Shown one piece after another: positions 20,352 to 47,423 of a stretch of 64,000 nt of DNA. The notes beneath the pieces were generated by a model that saw nothing but the letters and a program-made list of their open reading frames with translations, did no database searches and was not told where the DNA came from. The position numbers and the translations under genes were made by a program. The stretch is from Oxalobacter aliiformigenes (GTDB taxonomy: Bacteria > Pseudomonadota > Gammaproteobacteria > Burkholderiales > Burkholderiaceae_D): positions 1,798,001 to 1,862,000 of the forward strand of contig NZ_CP098252.1 in NCBI RefSeq assembly GCF_027116575.1, in the 5' to 3' direction. Numbering within the stretch: position 1 is the stretch's first letter; the number at the start of each line of letters is the position of its first letter.

Positions 20352-21824
20352 ATGACCAACGCATCGCAACAGCAGGATTTCCCCTTCCGGGGACTGAAAC
20401 CCGAATCCGTCTGGAAACATTTCGCCGCTCTCTGCCACATTCCGAGACAGTCCAAACATGAAGGTCCTGTCAAAGACTATCTCCGGAAATGGGCGACAGG
20501 ACAGGGACTTGTCAACTTCATCGACGCGGGGGGCAACCTTGTCATCCGCAAACCCGCCAGTCCCGGACGGGAAAACGCTCCCGGTATCATTCTTCAGGCT
20601 CATCTTGACATGGTTTGCCAGAAAAACGATTCCTCCACACACGATTTTTCGCGAGACCCCATCCATGCGACTGTTCGCGGCAATCTTGTTCTCTCAGAGA
20701 ATACGACACTTGGTGCGGACGACGGCATCGGTGTTGCGCTGGCCCTTGCCGTACTGGATGACAACTCACTGGTTCATGGACCACTCGAAGCCCTGCTGAC
20801 AGTCGATGAAGAAGAAGGAATGGGGGGAGCCAACAAGCTGGCGACCGACGTACTGCAAGGCAAAATCCTGCTGAATCTCGATAGTGAAACATGGGGGGAT
20901 TTTTGTCTCGGCTGCGCCGGAGGTATGGACGTTCTGGTCCGACGTGCCGGACATCCCGAAACGTTCCCAGCCGGATGGCAGGCTGTACAAATCGACATCA
21001 CCGGGTTGCGTGGCGGACATTCAGGCATCAACATTCATGAAGGACGCGGCAACGCTATCAAGCTTCTGGCAAGAATTCTCCATTCGTTGCAAAACCGTTT
21101 TCCGGTATGTCTGTCGACTTTGACAGGAGGAACCGCACGTAATGCCTTGCCAAGGGAAGCCTCCGCCATCATCGGAGTACAACCGCAAAACACGGCTTCT
21201 TTAAACGATCTGCTTCAACAATGGCAAACCCTGATCCGTCAGGAACTGGCAGGAGTTGATGAAAATATCCGGATCGGCTGGAAACCTGTTACCGCCGGCC
21301 AAATCATGTCTTCCGATGATCAGCGCGTCTGGTTGCATTCACTGCATGCCGCTCCCCATGGTATATGGCGGATGAGTGTTTCCGCGCCCGGTTCTCCGGA
21401 AACATCGAACAACCTCGGAACGGTGAATTTGCAACCGGACAGCGGTTCATGCACGTTTATGGTCCGTTCGACCATTGAGAGCGCCTGTCATGCACTAGCA
21501 GAAGAAATCGCGAGCCTGTTTGCCCTGTCAGGTATACAAATCAGGAAAGAAAACGCCTATCCGGGATGGGCACCTGATCTTTCATCTCCCTTGCTGGCAC
21601 TCTGCCGGAAAATCTATAAACAGGAATTTGGCAGCGAACCGGCCACCCATATTATTCATGCCGGACTGGAATGCGGGATTCTGAAGTCGAAATATCCCGA
21701 TCTCGATATCATTTCATTCGGCCCGACTATTCATAGTCCCCATGCGCCGGGAGAATCCGTTGAAATCGACACAGTCGAAAACTGCTGGCGCCTGTTGAAG
21801 CCCCTGTTGAATGCCATAGAATAA
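20352..21824 (+). CDS. pepD: Aminoacyl-histidine dipeptidase PepD (beta-Ala-His dipeptidase, M20C)
   Basis: 490 residues, the family's normal length. Cytoplasmic metallo-dipeptidase that cleaves Xaa-His dipeptides. Metal and catalytic regions: ILQAHLDMVCQKN, GADDGIGVALALAVLDD, TVDEEEGMGGANKLATD and the C-terminal HAGLECGILKSKYPDLDIIS. The lid domain (about 185-400) holds GGHSGINIHEGRGNAIKLLA. A terminator follows 33 nt after the stop, so it is likely monocistronic. Confidence 0.95.
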   Translation: MTNASQQQDFPFRGLKPESVWKHFAALCHIPRQSKHEGPVKDYLRKWATGQGLVNFIDAGGNLVIRKPASPGRENAPGIILQAHLDMVCQKNDSSTHDFSRDPIHATVRGNLVLSENTTLGADDGIGVALALAVLDDNSLVHGPLEALLTVDEEEGMGGANKLATDVLQGKILLNLDSETWGDFCLGCAGGMDVLVRRAGHPETFPAGWQAVQIDITGLRGGHSGINIHEGRGNAIKLLARILHSLQNRFPVCLSTLTGGTARNALPREASAIIGVQPQNTASLNDLLQQWQTLIRQELAGVDENIRIGWKPVTAGQIMSSDDQRVWLHSLHAAPHGIWRMSVSAPGSPETSNNLGTVNLQPDSGSCTFMVRSTIESACHALAEEIASLFALSGIQIRKENAYPGWAPDLSSPLLALCRKIYKQEFGSEPATHIIHAGLECGILKSKYPDLDIISFGPTIHSPHAPGESVEIDTVENCWRLLKPLLNAIE

Positions 21825-22553: not shown

Positions 22554-22646
22554 TCAGTTGATCGGAAACTGGCAAAACACGATGACCACACATACCGAAC
22601 ATACAAAAATCAGTGCATCCATTATTTCGGAAACAATACCATTCAT
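22554..22646 (-). CDS. Candidate SOS-controlled 30-residue membrane peptide (TisB-like in design)
   Basis: An ORF too short for routine calling. ATG at 22646 follows AGAGGA with an 8-nt spacer, and the TGA is at 22554. The peptide opens MNGIVSEIMDALIFVCSVCV, and residues 11-27 form one hydrophobic helix with three Cys; charges are confined to Glu7 and Asp10. Directly upstream (22667-22709) is a palindrome of two LexA boxes containing a good -35/-10 pair aimed at this ORF, giving an 18-nt leader. Size, single helix and tight LexA control resemble TisB of E. coli (29 residues). No sequence homology is claimed, and toxicity is inference. Confidence 0.55.
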   Translation of the reverse strand: MNGIVSEIMDALIFVCSVCVVIVFCQFPIN

Positions 22647-22666
22647 TTTTCAATTCCTCTCTGTTT

Positions 22667-22709
22667 ACTGTTTATATTTACAGTATATCATACTGTAAAT
22701 ATAAACAGT
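22667..22709. promoter_or_regulatory. Double LexA box palindrome with promoter in each direction
   Basis: Two 20-bp arms are perfect inverses around a 3-nt centre. Each arm has a CTGT-N8-ACAG LexA box: CTGTTTATATTTACAG (22668-22683) and CTGTAAATATAAACAG (22693-22708). On the minus strand, TTTACA (22699-22694), 17 nt, TATAAA (22676-22671) is a near-consensus sigma70 promoter toward the small ORF. By symmetry the plus strand has the same pair (22677-22682, 22700-22705). Confidence 0.8.
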
Positions 22710-22740
22710 TCCATTTTTTTGTTCCTCCTTTTCCGGACAC

Positions 22741-22774
22741 AAAAAAATCTCCCGTCCTGAAAAGACGGGAGATT
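22741..22774 (-). terminator. Terminator of the 22791-23561 gene
   Basis: AATCTCCCGTC, 7-nt loop, GACGGGAGATT, with a run of seven A on the plus strand, i.e. T on the minus strand. It ends the minus-strand gene and insulates the LexA palindrome from read-through. Confidence 0.85.
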
Positions 22775-24310: not shown

Positions 24311-25576
24311 CTAATCGCCGCATACTGCCAGTTCATTCCAGGATGTCGTATATCTTGGGGACATTCGCTCTTTTCGGGGTTCCCAATACCGGTGCATCCA
24401 GTCATCCTGTGACAGACGCAAAGCCCCGTTTCCGAACTGTCCGTTGATTTCATCCATCACCTTCATGATCCGTTCCTGTCTGGAATCGGCAAACATATCC
24501 GGAAAAAACAGTGACTCCGGAGACAGCTCACTGACGCAAACCCCTGCCTTGCGATACTCATATCCGGACTTGTATATCCTGTGAAGCCCGATCATCGCAT
24601 ACCGGTTTATTTCCACCGTACTACTGGTCGGTTCGACAAGTGGCAAACTGATATAGGGATGATATTGAGGCCGGTCTTTCCTGAACGGATCTGTCTCCAG
24701 AAACACATGCACCATCCCGGCAACAGATTCCTGCTTTCTCAGTTGCCGACCGATCTTCGTCGCATGAAAAGCCATGGCATTTTCCAGATCATCCTGTTTC
24801 GTAATCCGTTCTCCGAAAGAACGGCTGGACATAATCTGTTTGCGTGGCGGACTGATATCAGCTATCTCGATACATGGAATACCCCGCAATTCAGAAACCA
24901 GCCGTTCCATCGGCACGCCAAAACGGGCACGCATGGCCTTGATGTCCGAATCATGCAACTGGCAAACCGTTCCAATCCCAAGACGCCTCAATGACCGGTT
25001 CAGCCTCTGACCAATTCCCCATACCTCATCAACCGGAATTTTGTCGAGCAGTACGCGTTTCTGCTGTCGATCCAGAACATTGTAAAAAAAAATTCCCTTC
25101 GATTTCGGATGCTTCTTCGCAACAAAATTGGCAAGTTTCGCTAGCGTTTTCGTCGGGCCGATACCGATACATACCGGAATACCTGCCTGCTTGCAGACAA
25201 TTTCCCGGATAGCGCAAGACCGTTCCCGGATATCGTCGAATCCGGTCAGATCCAGAAACGATTCATCAACACTGTATTCCTCATGAACCGGTGAAAAATC
25301 CGCCAGCATGCACTTCACCCGGTTGCTCAGATCGGAATACAAGGGAAAATTGCCTGAAAATGCCATGACATCCCGATATTTATGCAATCCTTTTACCTTG
25401 AACCAGGGTTCTCCCATCCGGATTCCCAGCCTTTTCGCTTCATCACTTCGGGAAATCACGCAACCATCATTGCTGGACAGTACAACCATTGGCCTGCCAT
25501 CCAGATCAGGCCGGAACACCCGTTCACATGAAACGAAAAAGTTGTTGCAATCAACCAGCGCAATACATTTTTCCAT
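24311..25576 (-). CDS. umuC: Y-family DNA polymerase UmuC (Pol V catalytic subunit)
   Basis: 421 residues from ATG 25576, matching UmuC length. Error-prone translesion polymerase of the SOS response. Motifs: CIALVDCNNFFVSCERVFRP (first metal Asp), VVLSSNDGCVISRSDEAKRL, and the catalytic YSVDESFLDLTGF, then GIGPTKTLAKLANFVAKKHP, VDEVWGIGQRLNRSLRRLGI. The upstream in-frame extension to 25705 has no coding support. The usual partner umuD is not upstream here. A LexA palindrome lies 326 nt upstream (25902). Confidence 0.95.
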   Translation of the reverse strand: MEKCIALVDCNNFFVSCERVFRPDLDGRPMVVLSSNDGCVISRSDEAKRLGIRMGEPWFKVKGLHKYRDVMAFSGNFPLYSDLSNRVKCMLADFSPVHEEYSVDESFLDLTGFDDIRERSCAIREIVCKQAGIPVCIGIGPTKTLAKLANFVAKKHPKSKGIFFYNVLDRQQKRVLLDKIPVDEVWGIGQRLNRSLRRLGIGTVCQLHDSDIKAMRARFGVPMERLVSELRGIPCIEIADISPPRKQIMSSRSFGERITKQDDLENAMAFHATKIGRQLRKQESVAGMVHVFLETDPFRKDRPQYHPYISLPLVEPTSSTVEINRYAMIGLHRIYKSGYEYRKAGVCVSELSPESLFFPDMFADSRQERIMKVMDEINGQFGNGALRLSQDDWMHRYWEPRKERMSPRYTTSWNELAVCGD

Positions 25577-25901
25577 TGGTATGTTCCCGGCAGATCTGTA
25601 CTCCATCGCTGAACGCCCCCGGTCAAAGTCATCTCCGGCCCGCTTTTCATTGCGATTGCCCGATATATTCCATCCATATACATCACTCACAGCCCCCATT
25701 AGCACATGTTTTCCTTAAAATCCGGATCGGCAATAAGGGATAACCGGATCCTGTTTCTAAACAGGAAAATGCGGAAAACGCAAATCTGTCAATCAACAAT
25801 TGCCACTGCCTTGTATACAAAACCGGAATGCAGGTCAAGAGTACCCGACCAGCCTAGTTTTCAGTAAAAAATGGATCTCCGAACAAATAAACTATTATGT
25901 A

Positions 25902-25951
25902 CAAACAAGATTATTATGCTGTACAAATATACAGCATAATAATCTTGTTTG
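25902..25951. promoter_or_regulatory. LexA box inside a 22-bp-arm palindrome
   Basis: The arms CAAACAAGATTATTATGCTGTA and its inverse are perfect, separated by 6 nt. The centre contains CTGTACAAATATACAG (25919-25934), a CTGT-N8-ACAG LexA box. It lies between umuC (minus, 326 nt away) and a small plus-strand ORF (25981). Whether it serves umuC, a divergent transcript or both is not clear. Confidence 0.7.
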
Positions 25952-28625: not shown

Positions 28626-31600
28626 TCACCAATTGATCCTAACGCCAGCAAAACCGCCGACACTCTTGTAACTTTTTTCTCCCTTTTGTAAACGCATCTG
28701 CGCCCAAGCATTCACGTTTTCATTGAGCATCACTTCAAACCCGGTTTTCAGCTCGGCAATATCGTTCGGCAAACCCGAATCAAAGTTTTCGTCTTCAATG
28801 CGAATCATTGATGTTTTCTGATTATGCCACCAGTTCAGCTCGGCATAAGGCTGCCACCGGGTATCTTTTCCCCTACTATATCCGAAAATACGTGTTCCCA
28901 AACGAGTCGATATGCCGTTTTTATGCCTGTTCTCGATTACGGTTCCGTTGCTTTCGACTACATCATTGGCATGGTAACGGGTATAAACGATTTGTGCCTG
29001 TGGCTGAACATAAACATGATAATCTTTATCTGTATAAGCATCAAAAGTCCAGCCGCCTTCCAGCGATCCGCTCCATGCCCTGCTGTTATACCGATTTTCA
29101 TCGAGTTCTTCACCTTTTACCTGATTCTTGAACCAGCTATGTTGCAACCAGCTATCCAAATAAGGACCTGATGCTCCTTTCCTCGCATCAGAATACCAGG
29201 TGGTGTAAACTCCGGCACTGTAACCGGTCAGATCACTATCTGCCCTGTATACCTGTCCGTCGGTCAGACTACGGCTTCTGACCGTACCGTAACCGGCCAT
29301 TACTCCAACACGCCAGTTATTGATATTTTCCGCACTACGGAAAATATCGCTTCCCACCTGAATCCTGTTGCCCCAGCGTCGCTGGTCAATTTGACCCGCA
29401 CTCCGACCTGTACCATAATCAGCCTCGACATATCCCCAGAAAGCCTCTGCATTTTCGCCGGCTACTGCACTTTCCAAGAACTGCCTGTTTCCCGTACGGT
29501 CTTGCAATGTATGTCTGAACATCGTCAAGGCCGCATCCCGATTCGCCAGATATGCACCGACTTCCGGGCGTATGGGTGCTGTTCCAGCATCATTGCGTGT
29601 GGAACGCAGATACCAGTCCCCATCATCCGGATTATCCACACTTCCTTTGTAAAGCCGGTAATCATAGGCCCCTTGGACAACACGATTACCCAAATGGAAC
29701 TCTCCGTCGGAAATACCGTCCACCTGAACAATCTGGATACCATTATGAGTAGCATTTCCCATACCTCCGGCATTATTCAGCATGACAGCAGTCGATCCCG
29801 ATGTATTGCCCTCCACAATCAATTTATCCGTTACCGAACTGTCATCCCCCAGAACCGTGTTCATCACAAGTAAGCCACTACCGGAATAATCCCCTTTCAC
29901 CCGAAGAACATTCCCTGCATCATCCCCACCCAGATGAATTGATCCGCTATTGGTCAGATTACCTGATATTGTCAAGGTACCTGTGCCCTTTGTCAGAACC
30001 GCCATTCCGCTTCCTGCGGCCAGAATTCCCTGATTGATGACATTACCGCCAATCAAACCATACCCCCCCAGAGACGCTCCCTCCGCAATTCTGACATCTC
30101 CACTTCCTGAAAGCGCACTGGAAAGGCCGTCCATCACGAGCGAACCATGCATGATTTCCGTACCACCTTCATGGGCATATTCCGAACTGATACGAACAAT
30201 ACCCTCGCCTTCCTTGACCAGTTTTCCAGATCCATTCATGACATTGTCGAACTTCCAGTCATCATCACTATGGAGAACAAGATTGCCTTCATTAGTGACT
30301 GTTGCTGTTCCCAACTGTGAATCTGACGTTGCGGACAGTGTTGTTCCGGAACCGATATGGATACTGCCCGAAAAATCAGCATTATCCGCCAAGAAACCCA
30401 CGTTGCTACCATTTGTGAGAGACACGATTCCGGTTCCTTCCAACCTGTTTTCCATTGTCCCCTGTGCTCCGGATAACTGCAGATCGCCCGACAAATTGAT
30501 ATTTCCATTCCCCAATCCCTTGACTGATTGCAATCTGGCCGTGGCACCGCTTTGCAGATCTATAACAGCATCCAATTTTTCATTGGCATTAGCAACCGTC
30601 AATGTCCCTCCCGACAAATGCAGATAACCGCTACCGGAAAGATCGCCATTACTTTTTCCACCAGCCGCAATCGTCAGATCCCCTCCTCCCAGATCGAGAG
30701 TTGATCCTGTTTCTCCGTTCAGTTCACCGATATTCTGACGGAATCCATTCATATTGACTGTTGCAGTCTCACGGATATTCAATGCACTGGTATGCCCGAA
30801 TACGTCATTCGCCCCCATATTTAACGTCCCGCTTGTTACGGTTGTCTGTCCACTATAATCATTGGCTGCATTCAAAAGCGTGATACTGTTATCATGTGCC
30901 CTGAACTCGAAATCGCCTGAACCGGTCAGTTTCGTGCCAAAGTTGGCATCAGGTGCTGTTGCCGAATCCAGTATTGCGTTTGTTGTGCTTTCCAGTGTCT
31001 TCAGGACATACCCGCCAAAAAGCCCCGTCATGTTTTCAGTCTTGTTATCCGTAATGACTGCCATATATCCATAAGTCGCACGGAGATCACTGTTCCCAAA
31101 CCCGTCATTGGTTACGACCGTTTTGTCCGCCGGAACGATACCATCCATCAGAAGATTCAATTGGGTTCCTGCAGAACTAACAGCATCTGCCTTGACAATC
31201 GCGATACTGTTTTCCGCGTTGACATCCCCCTGCAATAACAGATTGCCGCTTCTCTCTGGATCAGGATTCAAGGAAGCACTCCCTTTATAATTCACCGTAC
31301 CCGGTACAGTCGGAGATTCTTTGGCATCCACATTCAGATACCCGACCGTCAGTACATCAACATCCGTACCGTTTCCAAGAGTGGTATTCAACTGACCGCC
31401 ACTGAACGTCAGATTACCAATAGACCTGTCTCCATCCAGAGTGACACTGCCATTTTTTCCCAGTTCAAGAGTCGCCTGTGAAAGAGCCGAACTGTTGGCA
31501 TCTCCCAATATCATGCTACCGCTGTCAAGTTTCACCTCGCCACTAAAACCGCTACCGACCGAGTGAGAAAAATCGAAAGTATCAGATGACGATTCCAGTG

Positions 31601-34600
31601 TAACCAGCAACTTGCCATCACCCTCAAGCCGGTTATCGAACGTATAAGTATCTCCATCAGGATTATCGATAAACAAGGTACCCTGTGATGCGATATCGAT
31701 AACTCCACTTCCGATGGACCCTTTTCCTGTCAAACGTATCGTACCATCACTGATCAGCGTACCCCCACCGTAAGTATTTTTACCGGTAAAGGTAACTGTT
31801 CCACTACCGGCCTGCTGCATCTGCCCTGTGCCACTGATGACTCCATCATATTCCAGATCATCTGCACGATTGAAGACAACCACACCGGCATTCACAATAT
31901 TTCCGGATACACTACCACTCGTACCGCCATCCCCTAACCGCAGAATCCCCGTATCGACAGATGTCGTCCCGGTATAGGTATGATCACCGGTCAGAGTCAG
32001 TTCTCCATTCCCGGCCTTGACCAGACTGCCATTCCCGCTGATTATTCCGCCATAGGCAATATCATCACTTCGGTTGAAAACGAGTTTTCCATCATTAGAA
32101 ATATTCCCCGCAACACTGCCGGTCGTCCCGCCATCTCCGATTTGAAGTGTACCGGCATCAATCGATGTTCCCCCTGCATAATCATTATTTCCGGTCAGTA
32201 TCAACGTCCCATTGCCTTCCTTGACAAGATTACCACTCCCTGTAATAACCCCATCATAGACAATATCATCACTTCTATTGAATCCTACCGTCCCATTATT
32301 GGCGATGTCCCCCGCATAACTTCCTGTTGTCCCTCCATTGCCAATTTGCAGGGTCCCTGCCGTAACTGTCGCCTCTCCCTTGTAGGTGTTCTCTCCCGTC
32401 AGTGTCAATGTCCCTCCCGACAAAGCCAGCGTTCCTGCACTTCCACTGATCACTCCTCCGAATTCTCCTCCTCCGGCTATTTCCAGATTTCCTCTGTTGA
32501 TGTCCAGTTCCCCTTCTCCATTCAGGGTTCCTATCTTCTGGTCTTTACCGTTTATGTCCGTCCTGGCACCACTATGGATATTCAGTTCTCTTGTCTCTCC
32601 CAACGCATGGTCCGTCCCCAGTTGCAGGGTCCCTTCACTGACTGTCGTACTTCCTCTGTAATCGTTATTGCTGTTGGCCAGTATTATTCTGTCTGTCGCA
32701 CTTATTGCCAGATTCCCGCTTCCTGTTATTTTCGCCTTCATGTCATTCGATCCTGCAGGCGTCGTTTCATCTCCTGACAATGTCAATGTCTGGCCATCTT
32801 TCAATTCCAGTTCGGTCAGACGGTAACTAGTAAACAAACCATTACTTCCCGGAGAATCTGAAATACTCTTCAAACCATATGCATAACTGGCAACGGCTAC
32901 CGTATTGCCCTCCTGTTCCACATCAGACTGAACAACTCCCGACGCTACCGATCCCGACAGATTTTGTAAAACAAGATCCGAGGCTGCCCCCTGTACTGCA
33001 TTTGCTCTGACCAGCAACTGATTTGTTTCACTGTCGTCTTGTACCAAAAGCGATTTGGCCGAAATAACCGATGTATCTGCATTAACCTGTACTGTTCCGG
33101 AATCCAGTGTCAGTACATCCGTCCAAATCACACCCGTCGGCATATTGGGAAACCGCAGCAATCCACCATTCACCTGTAAATTACCAATTATCTGTTCACC
33201 TGCTCCGACATTCGTCGTATTGCCTGAATTCAACCGGAGAGTCGATTTGCCAAGAACTGTCGTATTGTTTCCAGCCAGGCTGAACAAGCTGTCATCCAAT
33301 TCAAGCGTACCGGCAAACCCCGTACCGGTTATATTGCTGAAATCAAAGGTATTTGTACCGGAAGCCAATCCCACCTTCAACAAACCGTTTCCAAGAAGTA
33401 CATTGCCAAAATTGTAATTTCCGCTGAAAGGACTATCTATCTGCAAGGTACCATTTGTATTGATCGTTACATTACCCTTACCAAGAGTTCCGTTTTCAGC
33501 CAACATCAGAACCCCCTCATTGACAACCGTTCCATCGCTGTAATTCTGTACTGTCGGTAATAACAATGTACCTTGGCCATTCTTGACCAGCCTTGTCGTA
33601 CCGGAAACCGGTGCTTCCAGTCTCAGCAGACCAGGGCTACTACTCTCATCCAGCCCGATATTCGCATTCACTGTTGTACCTGTATAACCGGTTTTCAGTG
33701 TACTCGACGAGTTTACTGTTCCATATCCTGAAAGATTCACGACACCACCTGCAGTGTTTCCCAACGCGATATTGGCAGAATCTAGCAACAGTGTTCCTCC
33801 AGCTACCGCAATTCCACTGCCACTATTCAGATTGATCGTTGCAGCTTTCAACGTACCCGAATTTTCACCTTTCAATGTGGCTGAATTTTTCAGATTGAAT
33901 GTGCCATAAGTTGTCCGTCCATAGTTGACTCCATCGGCAACAGTAAACGTCCCGCTATTAATATTGGTATTGACATTGATATCAGTATCAAAAGCAGTCG
34001 ATTTTCCGTTATCTCCATAAAAAACCGTCTCTCCAGTACCATTTTGGTCAAGTGTCAGTGTTGCACCGGCTACCAGTGCAAGAGGATCATAAAAACGGAT
34101 TGCATTACCCTGTGTTCCATTCAATGTCAGCGCATTGGATGTTTCCCAGTAAATTGAATTCGGCGTCCCGGTTCCTTCAACAGGCTTGTAAAAGATATAA
34201 CTGTTACCTGTATCAAGTGTCCGGTTTTCAGATACAAACGTGGCCCCCTGACGGTTTCCTTTAAATACAATATCTCCCTTGTTGGCATTGATATTCAGCG
34301 TGCCTTTCCGGACATATATCGCCCCACCAAGCGATTTGGCCGTATTGTTGGTGAATTCTGCCTCACCGGCAATATTTACGGAACCCGTTTGCGCATTCAA
34401 AAAAATCGCTCCGCCCAACCCATTTCCGTTGGCTGAATAGACATAATTGTTATTGAAAACGGAATTCCCGTTCAGATAAAGGTTGTAATTGCGATTACCC
34501 GTTTCTCTGGACTGATTCAGCCCGATTGCCCCTCCTTGCGCATTATTATAGGCATTGGTCTTCAGATCATTGACAAAATTGCCATCAAAGATGACATCAT

Positions 34601-35513
34601 CGTTAAAGGTTATTGATGTACCGGTCGCCCCGGAAGATGCCAGAAATCCGACATGAATTGCTCCACCACTGGCACTACGATCCGTATAATGATTCGGAAA
34701 ATCCTGAGTTGTATTCTGAACACTGTACGTGTAATTATCCGTAAAACTGGCATCACCATTGAAAACAAGTGAACCATTTCCTCCCCACATATCAATGGCA
34801 CCACCATAATGTCCTGTGTGATTATTATGGAACGATGTTGTACCGTTGAAATTCACTGTTGCAGGAGCATCCGAATAAATTGCCATTGCCCCACTATAAT
34901 TTGCAGACCAGTTCGAATCAAACGTGACATTATTGTAAAAATTCATGGTACCTGAACTGATTCCGATTGTTCCAGGTTGATCAGCAAGACCATGATTTCC
35001 CAAAAAAGTAACCCCCTTCTCCCCTCCGTTAATATTGGTCACACTGTTCACACGTTGTGAGATGATTGGACCATAATTGGCTGAAGCATATAAATTGTAG
35101 TTACTGGGTCCTATATTCTGGAATGTTGTGCCATTGAAATCAAAATTGGTTGTAATACCCGATGTACCGATCCAAAATAGCGAATCCCTTGCACTGGCAA
35201 ATGTTTGTGTTCCGACCATCGCGTCATTAATGGCCAGAGACCCATTATTACGATTGAAATTAAAATAAACGCCTGTTGATGGTCCGAACGTAATCCTGTG
35301 GCCGTTCCCGTCAATCGTCAGATTATTCGTATCGCCCGCAGCATAGGTATATACTGTATTCCAAGAAACATCACCCGACATACTAAGATCATATTTTCCT
35401 TTATTCAAATATCCACTGACGATATCTTCGCCTGCTGCTACTATTGTCTGTCCATATACAGGCAAGGCAATGGAAACAGAAATAAGGACATAGGAAATCG
35501 AGAATAATCGCAT
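28626..35513 (-). CDS. Giant autotransporter (2295 residues) with PATR repeats
   Basis: Signal peptide about 1-22 (MRLFSISYVLISVSIALPVY), then a very long passenger. Residues about 150-450 carry chlamydial Pmp-like motifs, with GGAIHVG, GGAIGLNQ, GGAIFLN and FTNNTAKSLGGAIYV. Residues about 700-1700 hold many autotransporter-associated beta-strand repeats of the type GNGxLxLTGxNxYxGxTxVxxGTL. A junction GGYVLKTLE-type block separates two such arrays. The beta-barrel (about 2000-2295) starts near GAYLANRDAALTMFRHTLQD and ends GGFAGVRINW. Few Cys. It is predicted to be a surface adhesin. Codon use is similar to its neighbours apart from more AT, and no frame break is seen. Confidence 0.93.
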   Translation of the reverse strand: MRLFSISYVLISVSIALPVYGQTIVAAGEDIVSGYLNKGKYDLSMSGDVSWNTVYTYAAGDTNNLTIDGNGHRITFGPSTGVYFNFNRNNGSLAINDAMVGTQTFASARDSLFWIGTSGITTNFDFNGTTFQNIGPSNYNLYASANYGPIISQRVNSVTNINGGEKGVTFLGNHGLADQPGTIGISSGTMNFYNNVTFDSNWSANYSGAMAIYSDAPATVNFNGTTSFHNNHTGHYGGAIDMWGGNGSLVFNGDASFTDNYTYSVQNTTQDFPNHYTDRSASGGAIHVGFLASSGATGTSITFNDDVIFDGNFVNDLKTNAYNNAQGGAIGLNQSRETGNRNYNLYLNGNSVFNNNYVYSANGNGLGGAIFLNAQTGSVNIAGEAEFTNNTAKSLGGAIYVRKGTLNINANKGDIVFKGNRQGATFVSENRTLDTGNSYIFYKPVEGTGTPNSIYWETSNALTLNGTQGNAIRFYDPLALVAGATLTLDQNGTGETVFYGDNGKSTAFDTDINVNTNINSGTFTVADGVNYGRTTYGTFNLKNSATLKGENSGTLKAATINLNSGSGIAVAGGTLLLDSANIALGNTAGGVVNLSGYGTVNSSSTLKTGYTGTTVNANIGLDESSSPGLLRLEAPVSGTTRLVKNGQGTLLLPTVQNYSDGTVVNEGVLMLAENGTLGKGNVTINTNGTLQIDSPFSGNYNFGNVLLGNGLLKVGLASGTNTFDFSNITGTGFAGTLELDDSLFSLAGNNTTVLGKSTLRLNSGNTTNVGAGEQIIGNLQVNGGLLRFPNMPTGVIWTDVLTLDSGTVQVNADTSVISAKSLLVQDDSETNQLLVRANAVQGAASDLVLQNLSGSVASGVVQSDVEQEGNTVAVASYAYGLKSISDSPGSNGLFTSYRLTELELKDGQTLTLSGDETTPAGSNDMKAKITGSGNLAISATDRIILANSNNDYRGSTTVSEGTLQLGTDHALGETRELNIHSGARTDINGKDQKIGTLNGEGELDINRGNLEIAGGGEFGGVISGSAGTLALSGGTLTLTGENTYKGEATVTAGTLQIGNGGTTGSYAGDIANNGTVGFNRSDDIVYDGVITGSGNLVKEGNGTLILTGNNDYAGGTSIDAGTLQIGDGGTTGSVAGNISNDGKLVFNRSDDIAYGGIISGNGSLVKAGNGELTLTGDHTYTGTTSVDTGILRLGDGGTSGSVSGNIVNAGVVVFNRADDLEYDGVISGTGQMQQAGSGTVTFTGKNTYGGGTLISDGTIRLTGKGSIGSGVIDIASQGTLFIDNPDGDTYTFDNRLEGDGKLLVTLESSSDTFDFSHSVGSGFSGEVKLDSGSMILGDANSSALSQATLELGKNGSVTLDGDRSIGNLTFSGGQLNTTLGNGTDVDVLTVGYLNVDAKESPTVPGTVNYKGSASLNPDPERSGNLLLQGDVNAENSIAIVKADAVSSAGTQLNLLMDGIVPADKTVVTNDGFGNSDLRATYGYMAVITDNKTENMTGLFGGYVLKTLESTTNAILDSATAPDANFGTKLTGSGDFEFRAHDNSITLLNAANDYSGQTTVTSGTLNMGANDVFGHTSALNIRETATVNMNGFRQNIGELNGETGSTLDLGGGDLTIAAGGKSNGDLSGSGYLHLSGGTLTVANANEKLDAVIDLQSGATARLQSVKGLGNGNINLSGDLQLSGAQGTMENRLEGTGIVSLTNGSNVGFLADNADFSGSIHIGSGTTLSATSDSQLGTATVTNEGNLVLHSDDDWKFDNVMNGSGKLVKEGEGIVRISSEYAHEGGTEIMHGSLVMDGLSSALSGSGDVRIAEGASLGGYGLIGGNVINQGILAAGSGMAVLTKGTGTLTISGNLTNSGSIHLGGDDAGNVLRVKGDYSGSGLLVMNTVLGDDSSVTDKLIVEGNTSGSTAVMLNNAGGMGNATHNGIQIVQVDGISDGEFHLGNRVVQGAYDYRLYKGSVDNPDDGDWYLRSTRNDAGTAPIRPEVGAYLANRDAALTMFRHTLQDRTGNRQFLESAVAGENAEAFWGYVEADYGTGRSAGQIDQRRWGNRIQVGSDIFRSAENINNWRVGVMAGYGTVRSRSLTDGQVYRADSDLTGYSAGVYTTWYSDARKGASGPYLDSWLQHSWFKNQVKGEELDENRYNSRAWSGSLEGGWTFDAYTDKDYHVYVQPQAQIVYTRYHANDVVESNGTVIENRHKNGISTRLGTRIFGYSRGKDTRWQPYAELNWWHNQKTSMIRIEDENFDSGLPNDIAELKTGFEVMLNENVNAWAQMRLQKGEKSYKSVGGFAGVRINW
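31749..32359 (-). repeat. Three tandem 68-residue units in the giant autotransporter
   Basis: Three consecutive units of about 204 bp begin GTLQIGNGGTTGS, GTLQIGDGGTTGS and GILRLGDGGTSGS. They are closely related (FNRSDDI or FNRADDL, then VITGSGNL, ISGNGSL or ISGTGQM, then LTGNNDY, LTGDHTY or FTGKNTY). Such units can gain or lose copies by recombination. Confidence 0.85.
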
Positions 35514-37089
35514 TTTATGAGAAACCGAATTCTAAAAAGTTGACTTGGACAGCCAGTTTGGTGAGCCAACAAGAAACACACAAAAACCGGCTGCAGGTCA
35601 ATTTTGTCCTCTATTGATGAAGTAGCATTTGTCGTTAAACAAGGAATCAGTCATGATGAGTTGTTCTATGATAGAAACAGGCTGATTCTTTGAGCGATAT
35701 TAGATTCCAGTACGGTCGTAAAAAGATAAATTCCAAGAAGTACAGATTATGTTTCACCTAATCCGTCTATAAAAAAGTTTTGGAAAGAAACAAATAAATG
35801 TATTTTATATAATTGATCTTTATGATTAATTGGCTATAAATCAATCCCTGACCAACGTTGGGAAATCATTTCAACAAAAACAAGAAAACTCAGACATATG
35901 TAAATAATTTGAATACATCCGATATCTGTAAAAAATGAACTCGAACTTCCTTGAAGCAAACAAAAAAACACCTGTAAAATTAGTGAACTTATAAAATGAA
36001 TACAAATAATAGTCAAACTTACAAGACGGAAACAGTACCCCCCACTTAACTCTTAAAAGATTGATGACTATCATTCTATTCCGGATTTTTAAAACTCAAT
36101 GAAACCTGCTTTTTCAGAAAAAACATTTTTCCGAATAAGACATTTGAGAAAAACGATATCTTGCATACAAACTGACAAACCATAATAAAAGCAAATCTGC
36201 CAAATACCAGTAACTTATAAGAATATTCGGAGTGGATTCACTCTAACAATTATTGATTTCTTGCATAGTCAAATCACATATCTTCTCTCTTCTGTGAGTC
36301 CGCGATTTTTTCAAAGACATAAAAAACCTTACCTAGAAATAAATACACTTAGATCATTGATATATCATACAATCACAGATGTCTTTGGATTATTCAGAAC
36401 CTTATTTTGGAACGACTTTCAGATACTCACATCCTATCCAAAAAATTGTAGATCTTTTGCAGCAGTTTGACGTTTTTCATCCTTATCGGTAGAAAGCTTG
36501 ACGATTTTTACCACGACATATCCCTTTCCTAGCAAGAATGGAGTATAAATTTTCCAAATAAAAGCATATATCCCGATAAATGCTCCTTTCTTTTCCAAAT
36601 TCAAGTGAACAATCCGGAAAAACTGTGATAACGGACTTAAAATAGCACGATTCTAGGAATTTGAAAAAACACAAATCCTTTAAAATAAAAGATTTAGTGA
36701 CGAAGAGAGGCCCTTGATTTCACAAGCCATTTCCTTGGACTATTTCAGTGAAATCTCCGGATAATTGCCAAGAGTATCGTCTTTTTCCAGCAGAATCCGT
36801 ATAATACAGAAAGAAGAAACTGTGGGTATTGCGGATATATAATCCCTGAACCTGTCTGACGTCCAAATTTCGTTTTTGAGATCTCTGAATTCAAGTGTAG
36901 TCAGTTCGCGTGCTCTTTTCAGCATAATTTATGATGGGAAAATGATAAATGAGATTATCGAACCCGTTTTCCCATCATAAAATCATGGATAGTGCCGGTT
37001 CCTTTCGGATACTTTCGGACACAAAATGCACGTAAGTGACTGAAAAATAAAAAAAATCCGAGACATTTTCGGATGTTCTCGGATTGGTG
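35514..37089. other. AT-rich gap without supported genes
   Basis: About 1.6 kb, clearly more AT-rich than the genes around it, with only short overlapping frames. A 61-residue minus ORF (36740-36925) has no ribosome site. At 36928-36981 a 15-bp perfect inverted repeat (TTTATGATGGGAAAA and its inverse) has a 24-nt spacer. It ends where the integrative element appears to begin. Confidence 0.5.
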
Positions 37090-37196
37090 TGGAGAGGGAA
37101 CTTCTAATACCTCTCATTACCCATTGAAAAATAAGTGTTTCTTCAATTAGATACTTGGAAATGCCCCCATAAATGCCCCTATTAATTTTTGCTTGA

Positions 37197-38915
37197 TCAA
37201 TTATTTTTTGCAGTTGCAAGCATACCCAGCATAGATTGATTAATTTTCTGCTTTGCACCCTCTTGGGCTTTTTGATGTTGTCTAACAGGGAAAGCGCCTG
37301 CAGCAACAGCACCTAAAGCACCAATGCCTGCTGCTACACCATTACCTAATATAGGTGAAAGAAACGGAAATAAAGTCATAAAGGCACCTACGCCTGCACC
37401 ACCTGCTTTTAGTGCCAAATCTTTCACTTTACCTGCGTATGTCTTTTCAATCTCAACAATATCTTTCTGATAACGTTGCATCAAACATGATAATCCGTGG
37501 TTAACTTCACGCACAACATCACTAATCTCAGCTCCACCAGCTTCAGCAAGTTGATTCGTATATTTCTTTAATTCAAACTGGAACCACTCATGTTCCTGTT
37601 TCTTCCGTAACTCAACCAGACCTTCAATAGGAATATTTGCAAGCCAACTCATACTCTGATCTTGCAGAGCTTGCATTGTCTGGAATGATTCATTTGACAA
37701 TATTTTGTTGTTGACCAACGTTTGAGCCGAGGCTTCACAGCATTTCATATAATAATGCCAATGCACTTCTTGGTTTAATAATGGCTGTGCATGTAATGAT
37801 TGGCTATTATCAAATAAATGATATTGAGGTCCTAGACGTTCCGATATGCCCATTAAGATTAATAACCCACGAGGCATTCGTTTCATCATATCTATCATAT
37901 CTGTATCTCTTCGATGTTCTTCTTCAGATATATATTTTCTTACAGCTTTTTCACCAGATAAAATCTCATTTGGCGAACTACCGGGTGGAATAAACAGCTT
38001 TTTAGCCATAACAGCATCAATGAATTTAGTTTCATGATTTTTTGAATATTCAACTAAATCCTGAAAAGAGTATATAGCACCATCACATACAGGAGAAACC
38101 AACTTAAGTAACATGTCACCAATACCCTGCTTTGTTATCGCATCGTTCTCTTCTAGTTCGAGTTCAAAACTTGGAAAAATATAAACAGGAGGGACAACAA
38201 AATGAGCGTCGATTAATGGTTTTAGTTTTAAAATATAAAAAAGTGTTTCCGCAAGTTGTAAATGAACTGCATTCAGATGCATATTACCTGAAACATGAGG
38301 GTAAACAGGATCAGGAATCAGCTGGGTATCTGAACAGAGTCCCGCAATACGAACGCCATTCAAAGCAGATTTTAAGAAAGCCCTTTGACCGCCAACAACA
38401 AACTTTGCTCCACCAAAATCTATAGCATCTGTGTATAACCTGAATTTGTGTGCATTGTAGAAATCTAGAAGCGATTCCAAAACTCTATTAAACTCTTTCT
38501 CAAAAAGATTTTTTTGATGTTTTAGTCTATCAATGAATCGTACGTGAATTTCATGAAGATCTGATATTGAATGAGATGTTGCTCCAACAAGAGCTATAAA
38601 TAATTTTTCAAATAGTTCAAATAAATTCGATTGAAGTTCCTGAGTCGTAAACTTTTCTTCAGATTCCTTCATCGCTTCTTCAACCTCAGGCCTAAAAAAC
38701 ATATCTTTTAGCATCTTTCCCGTAGCCCTTGCAAGTGACTTTGCTTCAGACGAAAGTGCAGTTGTATCTTCAACTCCCACTCCATTGAGTGGGACATTTA
38801 ATATTTCCTCATAACACCCTTTTAACTCTTCTTTGATGTGTAAACGCCCATCCTTTATAGCTAAAATAGTGTTGTGCACATCTTGTGCCAGAGATAGATC
38901 TTGCTCCTGAGACAT
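37197..38915 (-). CDS. Unknown 572-residue protein with C-terminal membrane helices
   Basis: No recognised family. Residues 1-480 are soluble and largely helical, with blocks such as LFEKLFIALVGATSHSISDL, FPSFELELEENDAITKQGIG and SWLANIPIEGLVELRKKQEH. Residues about 505-545 form one or two membrane helices (AGVGAFMTLFPFLSPILGNG, then AAGIGALGAVAAGAFP), with a basic tail. A large soluble part and C-terminal membrane helices are common in abortive-infection effectors, and it sits at the end of an integrative element, so a single-gene defence system is possible. It could equally be a membrane-targeting element gene. Alone on its strand here. Confidence 0.7.
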   Translation of the reverse strand: MSQEQDLSLAQDVHNTILAIKDGRLHIKEELKGCYEEILNVPLNGVGVEDTTALSSEAKSLARATGKMLKDMFFRPEVEEAMKESEEKFTTQELQSNLFELFEKLFIALVGATSHSISDLHEIHVRFIDRLKHQKNLFEKEFNRVLESLLDFYNAHKFRLYTDAIDFGGAKFVVGGQRAFLKSALNGVRIAGLCSDTQLIPDPVYPHVSGNMHLNAVHLQLAETLFYILKLKPLIDAHFVVPPVYIFPSFELELEENDAITKQGIGDMLLKLVSPVCDGAIYSFQDLVEYSKNHETKFIDAVMAKKLFIPPGSSPNEILSGEKAVRKYISEEEHRRDTDMIDMMKRMPRGLLILMGISERLGPQYHLFDNSQSLHAQPLLNQEVHWHYYMKCCEASAQTLVNNKILSNESFQTMQALQDQSMSWLANIPIEGLVELRKKQEHEWFQFELKKYTNQLAEAGGAEISDVVREVNHGLSCLMQRYQKDIVEIEKTYAGKVKDLALKAGGAGVGAFMTLFPFLSPILGNGVAAGIGALGAVAAGAFPVRQHQKAQEGAKQKINQSMLGMLATAKNN

Positions 38916-39071
38916 AGCTTCTACTCTTTATTATCAGTTTAAAATCAGTAATAAATTCATCATACATTATAAATATTGCTCAATGCGCTTCATAGCATCC
39001 AACAAGTTTTTAAGGATCTGATCTGGTATCAGAATAACAAATTCTTCCACCAGATCAATTTTGTAACCCTT

Positions 39072-40036
39072 CTAACTAAAAATCACATCCTCCACCCTCT
39101 CGAAATCCAGATACCTTCCATAAAGGGCGTCGACCATATCCAGATCACCAATTTCCCGGTAGGCTGCAATACAGTCTTCCAGTGTCAGCGTCTTGAATCC
39201 TGATTCTGACGGTTCGTTTGATATCAGGTACTTCTGATAGCTCTTCACCGCTCTGTCACAAAGATAGTTCTGCATCGGATAAATGACGATAAATCGTCCA
39301 TTGTCGTATCGCCCATTCTGTACCAACGCCCTGCTTAACATGTGTTCCCGCCATAACTGCTGAACAGGGTGTTGTCTCAGTTCTTTGGCATCAGCATCTT
39401 TGTACAAACCGGATTGACGGGACAACTCATCATATCGTGGTCTCAACTGGGCCAGAGGTTCTGTCATGGATTCGGCATATTTGACTTCTATGGCAATGTG
39501 TCCACTTTCCCCGTTTGGTGTGATGCATTCAATAAAGACATCGAACGCTGTGTAATCATGGGTATAGTCCGGATTGCCTCTTGCTGGGGAATGCTCAAAA
39601 TATATCCCTTCCACACTTTGCACGTAATCCGGAAAAAGGGATTTGAAGAAGCGATTGGCTTTTTCCTCATCCAGTTTCAATCCTCCACAAAAAGATTGAA
39701 GCAAAGCGGCTGGCTGGAAAGCAGATTTGTCCATAGCCTTTCTTCATCTATCAATGCACCAATCTCCTGATAAACGTATTCCCGGTATACCAGTTTCGCT
39801 ATTTCGGGCGTCAGGAAATTCATCCCTTTTTTTCCACTGTCCATACTCAACCGGCTACCCAATCTTCTCTTTTGTCCTTTTGGATTACGGTAACTCCCAA
39901 TAGGCAGATTTCTTTCCTCCCGCCACAAAGATTGCAACAGTCGTGCCACGGAAATGAAACGATGGTCTGAAGGTTCGTTGACCTTGTGAGCTTTCAGGAT
40001 GTGTTTCGAGATAAGGGGAAGTCTCTTTTCTTTCAT
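39072..40036 (-). pseudogene. PGN_0703-type putative restriction endonuclease, frameshifted
   Basis: Two minus frames make one protein of about 320 residues. The N-terminal part (to 39677) ends LLSSQPLCFNLF; the rest continues in another frame as CGGLKLDEEKANRFFKSLFP, with the nuclease-like FDVFIECITPNGESGHIAIE then VKY: Asp, then Glu-x-Lys, as in PD-(D/E)xK enzymes. The break is at a run of five T on the coding strand (plus 39689-39693); one more T restores the frame. It may be inactive, sequence error or slippage. Family call from memory of the conserved LWTNLLSSQPLCFNLFG block. Confidence 0.7.
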
Positions 40037-40339
40037 GATGTCATTCCTTTTAAAAAGCCGTGATTGGCTAAGAAATGTTCCAGAAAGTGGACGGGAAGTT
40101 TAGCTCATCTGCCTTGAAAACAGGCAAAAAAAAACAGGCCAAATGAAAAAAATTGTAACAGAGCCTAACTCCATGTTTCATATAAGGAATATACCTTTTT
40201 TCAGTCCTATTTCCGCCCTGTTTGTTACAAAAAAGTTTCGATTTCACTATAAGCAAAGCCTTCCAAAACGTATATGGCATATGAAGGAGCATTTTTCCTT
40301 CCAATTTGACTATCAAAATGACAGATAAAGGAGAAATTC

Positions 40340-41440
40340 ATGTCTAACTATTCTGAAGAAATGGCACAACAAATGACCGTAAGTGGAAACACACCAAACA
40401 AAGAGAAATTTTCTTTATTACAAGGACTGGGGTTTTATTCAAAGTTAGCCACTGCCATATACGGCAGTAATGAAAAAGAGTTTCAAAAAGCAATGTCGCA
40501 AGAAGCTAATGCAGCTAAAAAGGCATACGCAGACATTTACATATATAAAAGAGGACGCCAGTACAGCTCTGACATTGAACACTACTACCGATACCAGAAG
40601 GGCGATTTATCCAAACGATCTACACATCTGACCCGGAAGGAATTCACTGATTTATATAACTTCATCAGTGACGCCAATCAGGAAGGGTATATCCTGAATG
40701 TTGGCCTTACAATCAGCTGGAGCATGCTGGGCATTAAAAGGCATAAAGAAGCAACTGGTCTTCTGGATAAAGGGTTCATTAAACATTTGAAGAGCTGGCA
40801 TGCCTATCGCATTAAAACCGATCCTGCTGTACCCGATAAATCAAGGGAAACTCCCCTGCTCTGGTGCTATGTTCATGAGAACTCTCCCCAAATGGGTTTC
40901 CATACCCATATGATGATCTGCATCCCTCAGGAAATCATTCCATCATTCAGACACTGGGTCAGAAACAGAATTCAAAAACTGTCGAAAGTACAGCCCGTCC
41001 CCAAAAAAGCCGTACATATTTCCACACCCCCCAGCCAACCACTAAAAAGGCAATGGATTCGTTTCCAGTATATGTGTAAAGGACTTGACCCAAGAGAAAT
41101 TCTCAGATTTGAAAAATACGGTTGTGCGATCCCTCTACTGGCACTGACACAATTTCATTACAGGGATCCCGGTCTGCTCGATTGCAAAAAAAAGATGGGC
41201 TACACCCAGCGATATAACTTTTTTGCTCTATATAAAAAGGAATATAGGAACTATGACTATGTTTTCAACCTTGAACAATACAAAAGTGACTTCCGCAAAA
41301 TATCAGGATTCTGTTCTGCTCTGGATCAGGGAATATACGATATCCGGACTCTTTATCCCTCAACACTTGATGATATGACAAAAAGTTACCCCAGAAATAT
41401 GAGCAAAAAAAATTCCTTTAGCGATTCCAGAATTAGATGA
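40340..41440 (+). CDS. HUH-type replication initiator-like protein
   Basis: 366 residues, GGAGAAATTC before the ATG. A HUH-like metal motif is seen at His188-Thr-His190 (QMGFHTHMMICIP), and a candidate catalytic Tyr244 with Lys247 in RFQYMCKGLDP, the YxxK pattern of rolling-circle Rep proteins. The N-terminal half (YYRYQKGDLSKRSTHLTRKE) resembles inovirus Gp2/YagK-type Rep relatives. At an A8 run (41405-41412) the frame may be broken: with one A fewer, the protein would continue KIPLAIPELDENGPDIPAL to a stop at 41483, which looks more natural than the present end. Iterons and a perfect inverted copy of residues 152-203 lie downstream. Family assignment is tentative. Confidence 0.55.
   Translation: MSNYSEEMAQQMTVSGNTPNKEKFSLLQGLGFYSKLATAIYGSNEKEFQKAMSQEANAAKKAYADIYIYKRGRQYSSDIEHYYRYQKGDLSKRSTHLTRKEFTDLYNFISDANQEGYILNVGLTISWSMLGIKRHKEATGLLDKGFIKHLKSWHAYRIKTDPAVPDKSRETPLLWCYVHENSPQMGFHTHMMICIPQEIIPSFRHWVRNRIQKLSKVQPVPKKAVHISTPPSQPLKRQWIRFQYMCKGLDPREILRFEKYGCAIPLLALTQFHYRDPGLLDCKKKMGYTQRYNFFALYKKEYRNYDYVFNLEQYKSDFRKISGFCSALDQGIYDIRTLYPSTLDDMTKSYPRNMSKKNSFSDSRIR
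40795..40950 (+). repeat. 156-bp segment, forward copy (inside Rep-like gene)
   Basis: Codons for about residues 152-203, including the HTH metal motif. It is repeated without a mismatch, inverted, at 41862-42017. Confidence 0.97.
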
Positions 41441-41861
41441 AAATGGTCCAGATATTCCAGCACTCAGAAACATTAAAATCTGAAACCAGTATTCACGGAT
41501 ATCCTCGTAATCTGATTCTTTATTGAAAGCGGGAAACGACAGTATGCTTATCCTTCTGTCCGTTTCCCCATTCACTTGCCCAAAATATTGTTCAGTCATC
41601 CAATAAACAGAGGCCTTAAAATTCTGTGGCAAAAATAAACCACAGAATCAACAAAACGACACCCAATAAAGACATTCAAAAACAATGGATTAGAAACACC
41701 CGTCAAAAATAAAAGTGACTATCCACCCGCCACCTCCGCCAAGCATGTCATGTAATTTCAGAGAGCTGTTGAATTTATGGACATTCACAAGCTGTCAGAT
41801 GTATTGATTGTAAAAAGTTTTCACGTCTTGCCCTGCCCATCAAGTAAAGCATATGTATTTC

Positions 41862-42017
41862 CTGAATGATGGAATGATTTCCTGAGGGATGCAGATCATC
41901 ATATGGGTATGGAAACCCATTTGGGGAGAGTTCTCATGAACATAGCACCAGAGCAGGGGAGTTTCCCTTGATTTATCGGGTACAGCAGGATCGGTTTTAA
42001 TGCGATAGGCATGCCAG
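41862..42017 (-). repeat. 156-bp segment, inverted perfect copy
   Basis: Exact reverse complement of 40795-40950; the flanks do not match the Rep gene on either side. A transcript across both would fold into a 156-bp stem with a loop of about 0.9 kb. The remainder of 41441-42564 holds no supported gene apart from iteron-like repeats and two small hairpins. Confidence 0.97.
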
Positions 42018-42091
42018 TTATTGAAACCTATTCATCCTGACCATCAGACACAGTGGAAAGGGAATATCAGGCATACGTCTGGATTGGTATT

Positions 42092-42275
42092 GGTATAGAG
42101 GTATAGAGGTATAGAGGTAGTTTGGTAATAGAGAAACAGCCGGTATTTATCCGGCTGTGTATTCGTATAGTTGGATGGTATGTCTAGTGTGAGTGGTATG
42201 TGTAGTGTGGATGGTTCTTTAACCCCTTCTCTTTTTATATAACTCACTGATAGTTAGTTATGATAGTTAGTGACA
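42092..42275. repeat. Iteron-like short repeats
   Basis: GGTATAGA three times head to tail (42092-42115), then two 18-bp units TGGTATGTCTAGTGTGAG and TGGTATGTGTAGTGTGGA (42176-42211), then GATAGTTAGT twice (42249-42273). With the Rep-like gene these could mark a replication origin. Between and after lie hairpins CAGCCGG...CCGGCTG (42137-42157) and CAGCCTG...CAGGCTG (42356-42376). Confidence 0.6.
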
Positions 42276-42564
42276 TGTATTTTTATTCAATCGCATAAAA
42301 TTCATTCACCTCTATTCATCTTGTGCGGGTATACCTTGGACGCACCTAAGAAAACAGCCTGATAAATACAGGCTGTATTGTGATTGCAGTGCGGTGAATC
42401 TGTCTGGTGTGTTGTACGGTGGGGTTAAGTGCCTCTCTCACAAATCATATACTTCTTTCGATCCAGTAAATATATTACTGGGTAAGATATTTTTCATTTT
42501 TTTCAAATTCCCTCATACGGAAACAAACTTTCCAAACATCCTGTATAAAAAGAAGCATCCAGTC

Positions 42565-43278
42565 CTAATCAGCCACAGGTACAGGTGGATGAAAGTTAGG
42601 ATGGCCTTCAGTGCGTTCCCCACGGGCATTTATCCAGAAGAATTTTGCGTGGTGACTATAGACTTTGGAGGCCTCTGACAAGTCAAATGCTACAGCCAAA
42701 ACAAGGCTGAGAAGTAACCTGACGATTTCAAGAGTATCTTCATAAAAAAATTCGATATCCTTATCAGTTGCATCTGCAAAAGATGCTTTGGAAGGCGTAA
42801 TTTGCCTATGAGCTAAATGTTCATCACGTAATGCACGAATTTTCAGAAAAGTGGCGTGCCCGATACCACCTTCCAGATATTTTTCGATGAGGCTGATTAC
42901 TTTATCACGTTTTTTATCGAGTTTGGTGTTTAAATATCGTGGTAATCCTGAAGCAGTAATACCAATTCTTGAAACTCTTCTGGCAACAAGAGCATTGAAA
43001 ACTTCGGTGCTTCGTAATTCTTCTCTAATTTTCGTCATGCGAATTGCCTGATGATTGCTATCCCATAATCTCATTAAAGCAAGCAACATTTCGCGCCTCA
43101 GTGATGAACGAATAATTTGAAAAGAATGGGTAGCGAAAGATTCTCCCATTCGTTCAAGCAACTCATTATCGTAAGCTGTCGGCTTCCAGGTCTCATGAAA
43201 CATAACGGCTGTAACAGCCTCATTCTCAGCTGCTTTAACGGCAGCTTTTAATTTATCAAGACGTTCATTAATAGTCAT
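42565..43278 (-). CDS. AbiU2/HEPN-like protein
   Basis: 237 residues, helical and soluble. A HEPN-type R-x5-H motif is visible in RALRDEHLAHR (about residue 147-157), and the layout (ELLERMGESFATHSFQIIRS, then LMRLWDSNHQ) resembles AbiU2-type proteins of abortive infection. HEPN proteins of this group can cleave RNA. Alone on its strand, between iterons and the AlpA-like gene. No antitoxin partner is obvious. Assignment is by pattern only. Confidence 0.5.
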   Translation of the reverse strand: MTINERLDKLKAAVKAAENEAVTAVMFHETWKPTAYDNELLERMGESFATHSFQIIRSSLRREMLLALMRLWDSNHQAIRMTKIREELRSTEVFNALVARRVSRIGITASGLPRYLNTKLDKKRDKVISLIEKYLEGGIGHATFLKIRALRDEHLAHRQITPSKASFADATDKDIEFFYEDTLEIVRLLLSLVLAVAFDLSEASKVYSHHAKFFWINARGERTEGHPNFHPPVPVAD

Positions 43279-43413
43279 GGCGGTATACCCAGTTTCAGAA
43301 AAAATCCTTCAAACTTTATCATAAGGCGACTCAACCCAAATCTGATAGTGCCAGCCTGATCGAACATGATTTCCAATGATCCGCGCTCCGATATACTAAA
43401 TGTAGAGTGATCA

Positions 43414-43611
43414 TTAAAAAGAAGGCAACTCCTCAATAAAACGTTCCAGTTCACTTTTTGGAATCAGGGTACTCCTTCCCATTTTCTTGGCCTTGATTCG
43501 CCCTGCTTTCACTTCCTGATAAAAAGTTGTTCGTCCAATCCCGACCATTTCACAAAATTCCTTAACGGAAAAAAGGAGTTTGCCTGTTGTTTTGTCGTTT
43601 TCAGTATTCAT
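43414..43611 (-). CDS. AlpA/excisionase-like helix-turn-helix protein
   Basis: 65 residues of the MerR/AlpA type: LLFSVKEFCEMVGIGRTTFY, then GRIKAKKMGRSTLIPKSELE and a short tail. This is the usual P4-element regulator or excisionase that helps integrase or represses the element. No ribosome site stands out. Confidence 0.85.
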   Translation of the reverse strand: MNTENDKTTGKLLFSVKEFCEMVGIGRTTFYQEVKAGRIKAKKMGRSTLIPKSELERFIEELPSF

Positions 43612-43686
43612 GCTTCGCCCTTATAAAGTTTCTTCAGGCGTATATAGCTTCGACGTGCAAGTTACTTTATTTGGGCAATAGAATAG

Positions 43687-43715
43687 AAAAAACCGGCACA
43701 AAACAGATATGCCGG
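43687..43715 (-). terminator. Terminator of the lipoprotein pair
   Basis: CCGGCA, 11-nt loop, TGCCGG, followed on the minus strand by TTTTTT; 103 nt past the 43819 stop. Confidence 0.6.
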
Positions 43716-43818
43716 CCTTTCATAAACCATACCAATGAAGCATCATTATGTATTCAGGGAAAAGACATCATTACCCCGCTATGCAACTACCCTGAAAACA
43801 TATCTGACTCAAACTACC

Positions 43819-44241: not shown

Positions 44242-44249
44242 GTTTTCTC

Positions 44250-45008: not shown

Positions 45009-45035
45009 TTTTTCCTCTATTCTCAATTGGTTGGT

Positions 45036-45596: not shown

Positions 45597-45741
45597 TGAA
45601 TACTCTCCTTCAAGACAAGTAAGTAAGAATTATTTTTATAAATATACTCAATACGCCCACAGTTAGCATATTGCGATATTACAAAACTTCTGAAGCTAAG
45701 ACAACATAAATTGCACTTACTTAACAGTTTGAGGCTAGTTT

Positions 45742-46086: not shown

Positions 46087-46087
46087 T

Positions 46088-46498: not shown

Positions 46499-46553
46499 GC
46501 TTATTCAGCTGAAGAACCATGTTTTCAGAAGAATATTGATTTTCTTTTATTGA

Positions 46554-47399: not shown

Positions 47400-47423
47400 A
47401 AAGTCACCATCTCATCAATCACG

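Follow-up and report, generated by a model that had tools for sequence, protein, structure and literature searches.

A candidate LexA-controlled single-helix membrane micropeptide in Oxalobacter

A short gene of Oxalobacter aliiformigenes almost certainly encodes an SOS-controlled membrane peptide with a single predicted helix, as judged from the sequence of its reading frame and of the double LexA operator in front of it. The gene lies on the minus strand of the window, by which we mean the whole 64-kb stretch of DNA that was analysed (Table 1). SOS-controlled micropeptides are usually too short for annotation, and the known examples come from few lineages. The switch and the peptide are preserved together in related species, and we are very probably dealing with a real but unstudied damage-response gene. 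The host is a gut commensal that degrades oxalate, and the gene offers a well-conserved, testable example of such a micropeptide, whose operator and short invariant motif can both be mutated.

Table 1. Features of the peptide locus, in window coordinates.
Feature	Position	Strand	Remarks
Peptide ORF	22554..22646	-	30 codons, with stop; 30 aa; reads MNGIVSEIMDALIFVCSVCVVIVFCQFPIN
Shine-Dalgarno-like site AGAGAGGA	22655..22662	-	direct reading, 5' of peptide ORF
Downstream LexA box CTGTAAATATAAACAG	22668..22683	-	overlaps -10-like hexamer; one mismatch in L002
Candidate promoter TTTACA-17-TATAAA	22671..22699	-	inside operator; 10/12 consensus bases
Upstream LexA box CTGTTTATATTTACAG	22693..22708	-	overlaps -35-like hexamer; preserved in L001, L002 and L003
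Predicted intrinsic terminator of upstream gene	22741..22774	-	separates upstream gene from peptide gene
Upstream neighbour, 272 aa	22791..23609	-	matches neither Pfam nor NCBIfam; also adjacent in L001-L003
Downstream neighbour (DUF), ~109 aa	22005..22334	-	same direction as peptide; no Pfam match
M20 peptidase (pepD-like)	20352..21824	+	fixed flank of locus

A double LexA operator over a candidate promoter

The first-pass annotation had described two perfect 20-bp arms, each holding a CTGT-N8-ACAG box, and both are present (22667-22686 and 22690-22709), 20 nt each and 100% complementary across a gap of 3 nt. The distance from box to box is 25 bp. CTGT-N8-ACAG occurs four times in the window against 0.48 expected, a count that none of 100 shuffles reached, and two boxes no more than 40 bp apart did not arise in any of 150 windows simulated with a first-order Markov model; the double box is therefore more than chance would explain. 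The remaining two boxes of the window are at 21111 and 25919.

The annotation had also placed a -35/-10 pair within the arms, and this part of its reading stands with a qualification. Of the promoter-like pairs in the 140 nt that precede the start codon, the hexamers TTTACA (22694-22699) and TATAAA (22671-22676) are the best, but promoter-like sites are not in excess in this region (2 found, 4.0 expected), so the promoter call rests on the position of the pair inside the operator and on the relatives, not on its score. A general promoter scan passed over the pair because it demands T as the last -10 base. Among the relatives the best hexamer pair varies in detail and overlaps at least one box in 6/6 sequences. 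Given that the palindrome is perfect, the identical pair can also be read on the plus strand.

Such a palindrome could instead be a terminator or cruciform standing beside a chance ORF: its arms form a hairpin of 20 pairs, and the plus strand shows a terminator-like match. However, perfect symmetry has been lost in some relatives (L002 and L003) while the two boxes and their spacing are kept, and the ORF is conserved as protein. We regard this explanation as very improbable and, judging by the sequences, largely refuted.

Other candidate elements of the leader were considered and rejected. For a hairpin hiding the ribosome site, predicted accessibility was scattered, ranging from 0.23 to 0.85 at the ribosome site and from 0.14 to 0.81 at the start; values for the ribosome site were middling, and the short leader assumes a predicted start site. 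For a leader peptide, an 8-codon minus-strand frame with AAGGAGG and ATG (22706-22730) has a strong site and runs into the upstream LexA box. A similar short frame was seen by eye only in L002, so this frame is not conserved.

The proposed LexA control is supported by the preservation of the double operator in relatives and by the placement of the box before recA, lexA, umuD and ssb in the genus. The LexA DNA-binding model scored over its cut-off in 11 of the 13 genus genomes; at a looser E of 0.01 it matched all 14 control genomes, 9 of them over the cut-off. For the 9 of 13 lexA loci retained, four truncated or weak loci being left out, the upstream region carried an exact box in six cases, a box with one mismatch in two and none by pattern in one. 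In O. formigenes HC-1, the box precedes the genes for RecA (TIGR02012, 556 bits), a UmuD-like subunit (NF007621, 125 bits) and Ssb (TIGR00621, 188 bits), and it is also found before recA-like genes of other genus members, named by their likeness to HC-1 RecA. In most genomes, single exact ACTGT-N8-ACAGT sites did not outnumber those of the reversed control, and it is consequently only position and repetition that make the boxes convincing.

As a separate observation, a LexA box lies 14-15 nt before a gene of ~187 aa in four other genus genomes (loci L065, L070, L074 and L080, near position 1501). Its product looks like an HD-type hydrolase; the one copy searched matched no NCBIfam model at E 1e-10.

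The peptide, its conservation and its distribution

The 30-codon ORF and its ribosome site were found as annotated, and the hydrophobic helix with two acids near the N-terminus is also borne out: the acids read as E7 and D10, and AlphaFold2 predicts a single helix over residues 2-29 (mean pLDDT 88.7, 4 input sequences). The best 15-residue stretch has a mean hydropathy of 2.8-3.2 among the orthologs, and from this hydrophobicity the peptide is predicted to lie in the inner membrane. Three cysteines are indeed present (positions 16, 19 and 25), but as a conserved feature they fail, with only one in 2/5 distinct orthologs.

Alignment of five distinct sequences, in which the identical peptides of genomes G006 and G007 count as one row, yields the motif S-E-x-x-D-x-L-x-F-x-x-S-x-x-V-V-I-x-x-x-Q-x-P; 12 of 30 positions are invariant, including S6, E7, D10, S17, Q26 and P28. 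Net charge ranges from -1 to -4, with no K or R inside the helix; four of the five distinct orthologs lack these residues altogether, and the fifth has K2 only. A conserved helical face is not supported: the periodicity of conservation at 100 degrees gave p 0.08-0.17, and the best angle was 140 or 180. Pfam searches left three of the five orthologs without a match even at E 10 and gave the other two sub-threshold matches only, to CydS and PGG. No model of NCBIfam, PADLOC or PHROGs claims the peptide.

At the DNA level, conservation centres on operator and ORF, with mean pairwise identities of 0.75 (-40 to -21) and 0.65-0.74, respectively. Identity is 0.24-0.39 farther upstream and 0.09-0.38 from +80 to +259, and it climbs once more immediately ahead of the downstream gene (0.61 at +260 to +279) and within that gene. 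In all 15 sequence pairs pN is lower than pS, and the comparison of G006 with G007 shows 7 synonymous and 0 nonsynonymous changes. These patterns indicate that the ORF is a protein-coding gene under purifying selection. The first-pass annotation had named loss of the frame among relatives as a refuting outcome, and on this point the result speaks for the ORF. SOS-controlled RNAs exist, and the translation of the ORF is itself read from sequence, so the product might in principle be a regulatory RNA with an incidental ORF. Over 10 pairs, however, differences are most frequent at third codon positions (133, against 84 at first and 62 at second), and we consider this alternative extremely improbable.

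A scan of genome contigs with the upstream neighbour as query returned 7 loci, of which the best were Oxalobacter paraformigenes HOxBLS, O. formigenes HC-1 and an O. formigenes MAG; all three carry operator and ORF. In the genus search, 7 of 13 Oxalobacter genomes matched at E 1 or better. Five of these hold the full-length ORF (E 1.7e-20 to 1.1e-9), with the double operator kept too, and the short matches in G005 (E 0.078) and G011 (E 0.448) were dropped as chance, as were extra matches of 9-14 residues each inside other frames of G004 and G006. G006 and G007, both distant, were recovered although neither was in the query. Two exact boxes stand before the ORF in each, and a box with one mismatch occurs twice more in G006 and once more in G007. 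Overall, in the five peptide genomes the ORF lies at one shared junction, beside the DUF and pepD genes, and behind 2-4 boxes, each with at most one mismatch. Of 294 family genomes, three contain the exact 25-bp double-box spacing, in each case before this peptide, and the reversed control gave 0 in every genome.

The peptide is not universal in the genus. In G005 (L042, 1-762) a 174-aa gene and the downstream gene stand side by side, 47 bp apart, with no peptide or box between them: an empty site, where the peptide unit has been gained or lost. In the other seven genus genomes, some of them perhaps incomplete, neither the peptide nor the downstream gene was found. With 8/13 genomes thus showing no full-length copy, the function would be dispensable or carried out otherwise in those genomes.

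Beyond the genus, we sampled larger groups non-exhaustively. The family search matched 5 of 392 genomes, all of them the known Oxalobacter, and the order search matched 2 of 399, namely HC-1 itself and G716 (E 0.0068). The G716 match was rejected as a homolog: it is partial, falls out of frame within another stretch that looks coding, and its 3-kb locus lacks a CTG-N10-CAG box, pointing to chance. Viral contigs gave 206 pattern matches, 0 of them confirmed, and plasmids and phages held no match to the peptide. Judged by titles, the papers found on the Oxalobacter LexA/SOS response and on betaproteobacterial LexA include no report of it, PMC7739468 being unrelated. Within the samples searched, relatives were found only in Oxalobacter, and judged by its sequences the peptide adds a new family to the known LexA-controlled membrane micropeptides.

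Possible modes of action

How such a peptide might act can be pictured as follows. In undamaged cells, LexA dimers would occupy the two boxes and cover the promoter, a step that the sequence supports well. From general knowledge of the SOS response, damage would cause RecA to trigger LexA self-cleavage, and the double operator would keep the peptide gene tightly off until damage is heavy. Translation of the short mRNA would then begin immediately, at a ribosome site of its own, and the resulting one-helix peptide would enter the inner membrane, where it may bind a divisome or cell-envelope membrane protein and hold division or growth until repair is done.

We tentatively put forward as the leading mechanism, by analogy, a LexA-repressed brake on division or growth that would work like SidA of Caulobacter crescentus. 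SidA is described as a 29-aa, SOS-induced inner-membrane peptide that binds FtsW and inhibits division (PMC4211646). Compared by this description only, it shares with the Oxalobacter peptide an approximately equal size, a LexA operator and a predicted single helix, and in neither setting is SulA detected; SidA, however, belongs to an alphaproteobacterial lineage. An uncharged helix and 12/30 invariant positions are easier to reconcile with binding to one particular partner than with general disruption of the membrane. Furthermore, the brake is favoured over a peptide of the DinQ or TisB type and over another membrane modulator: the helix carries no charges, no flank resembling an antitoxin is conserved, and no SulA was detected. 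Against the brake stand the negative search for a conserved interaction face and the eight genus genomes that show no full-length peptide.

The SulA model PF03846 matched none of the 13 genus genomes, with a positive E. coli control. SulA is a larger soluble protein, whose role the peptide would fill if it blocks division; that would identify an effector of the SOS checkpoint in a genus with no detected SulA. Many bacteria without SulA use unrelated inhibitors, and its absence marks a vacancy only. It is possible, though less likely than not, that the peptide constitutes a separate Burkholderiales SOS checkpoint family: a LexA-gated transmembrane micropeptide that would stop division without SulA or an antitoxin, that would have evolved independently of SidA, YneA and SosA, and whose gain or loss would have taken place at a single Oxalobacter junction.

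A second possibility is a membrane-depolarising peptide like DinQ or TisB, in which damage would lead to insertion, a drop in proton-motive force and ATP, and growth arrest or tolerance. Size, single helix and SOS control match, and a tight double operator would suit a harmful product. DinQ in particular is described as a toxic, depolarising peptide of 27 aa with two LexA operators overlapping its promoter (PMC3567139), a likeness that we regard as confined to layout. Antisense RNAs (agrA/agrB), multiple transcripts and processing are features of DinQ, none of which is indicated for the Oxalobacter peptide; compared with DinQ by description only, the locus yielded no Pfam match naming it and no conserved flank.

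The comparison with TisB goes against the first-pass annotation, which had called the peptide TisB-like. Both are LexA-controlled membrane peptides, TisB having 29 aa. According to PMC11449926, TisB is reported only from Enterobacteriaceae, is amphipathic with a net charge of +1, and depends on K12 and Q19, which share the hydrophilic face with D22 and K26. The Oxalobacter helix, by contrast, has no basic residue, the peptides are net negative, and the TisB pattern (K12, Q19, D5, D22, K26, net positive) is absent from the five distinct orthologs. TisB and DinQ are moreover held in check by antisense RNAs; no IstR-like antitoxin RNA was found beside the peptide gene, the locus having no Rfam match and its flanks being unconserved except for the block before the DUF gene. 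We reject homology to TisB on the missing Pfam match, the missing K12-type pattern and the negative net charge, and a depolarising action of the DinQ or TisB kind seems to us rather unlikely. If it did apply, this would be an SOS membrane peptide that lacks the basic residues TisB needs.

Many small membrane proteins act as subunits or modulators of other membrane proteins. Without arresting growth, an SOS-induced peptide could likewise serve a transporter, respiratory complex or envelope protease, and the strong conservation of polar residues and of P28 would suit such a role. One ortholog weakly resembles CydS (E 0.053), but the match is under the cut-off and confined to 1/5 sequences, and no conserved neighbour has a matching membrane function. 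We judge this alternative to be improbable.

Gene neighbourhood and other features of the window

The downstream neighbour follows the peptide in the window, in L001, L002 and L003, and in G006 and G007. The conserved block just ahead of it (+260 to +279) makes an operon with the peptide gene less favoured, and the neighbour probably has a promoter of its own, as far as this block suggests.

Elsewhere in the window, a second perfect palindrome with 22-bp arms and a LexA-type core (25902-25951) lies upstream of a umuC gene (24311-25705). No credible umuD to go with this umuC turned up when the window was searched by tblastn with the HC-1 protein (best E 0.58); HC-1 has umuD and umuC together at another site. 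A reading frame at 28626-35513 encodes a 2295-aa autotransporter-like protein with PATR repeats and AC_1 and Pertactin matches. Finally, the stretch from ~34000 to 48000 has a low GC content (0.36-0.41 by 2-kb steps) and includes genes for a PDDEXK_13/REase-ARP protein (39072-39734) and an AbiU2 HEPN protein (42565-43278); it is perhaps a defence island.
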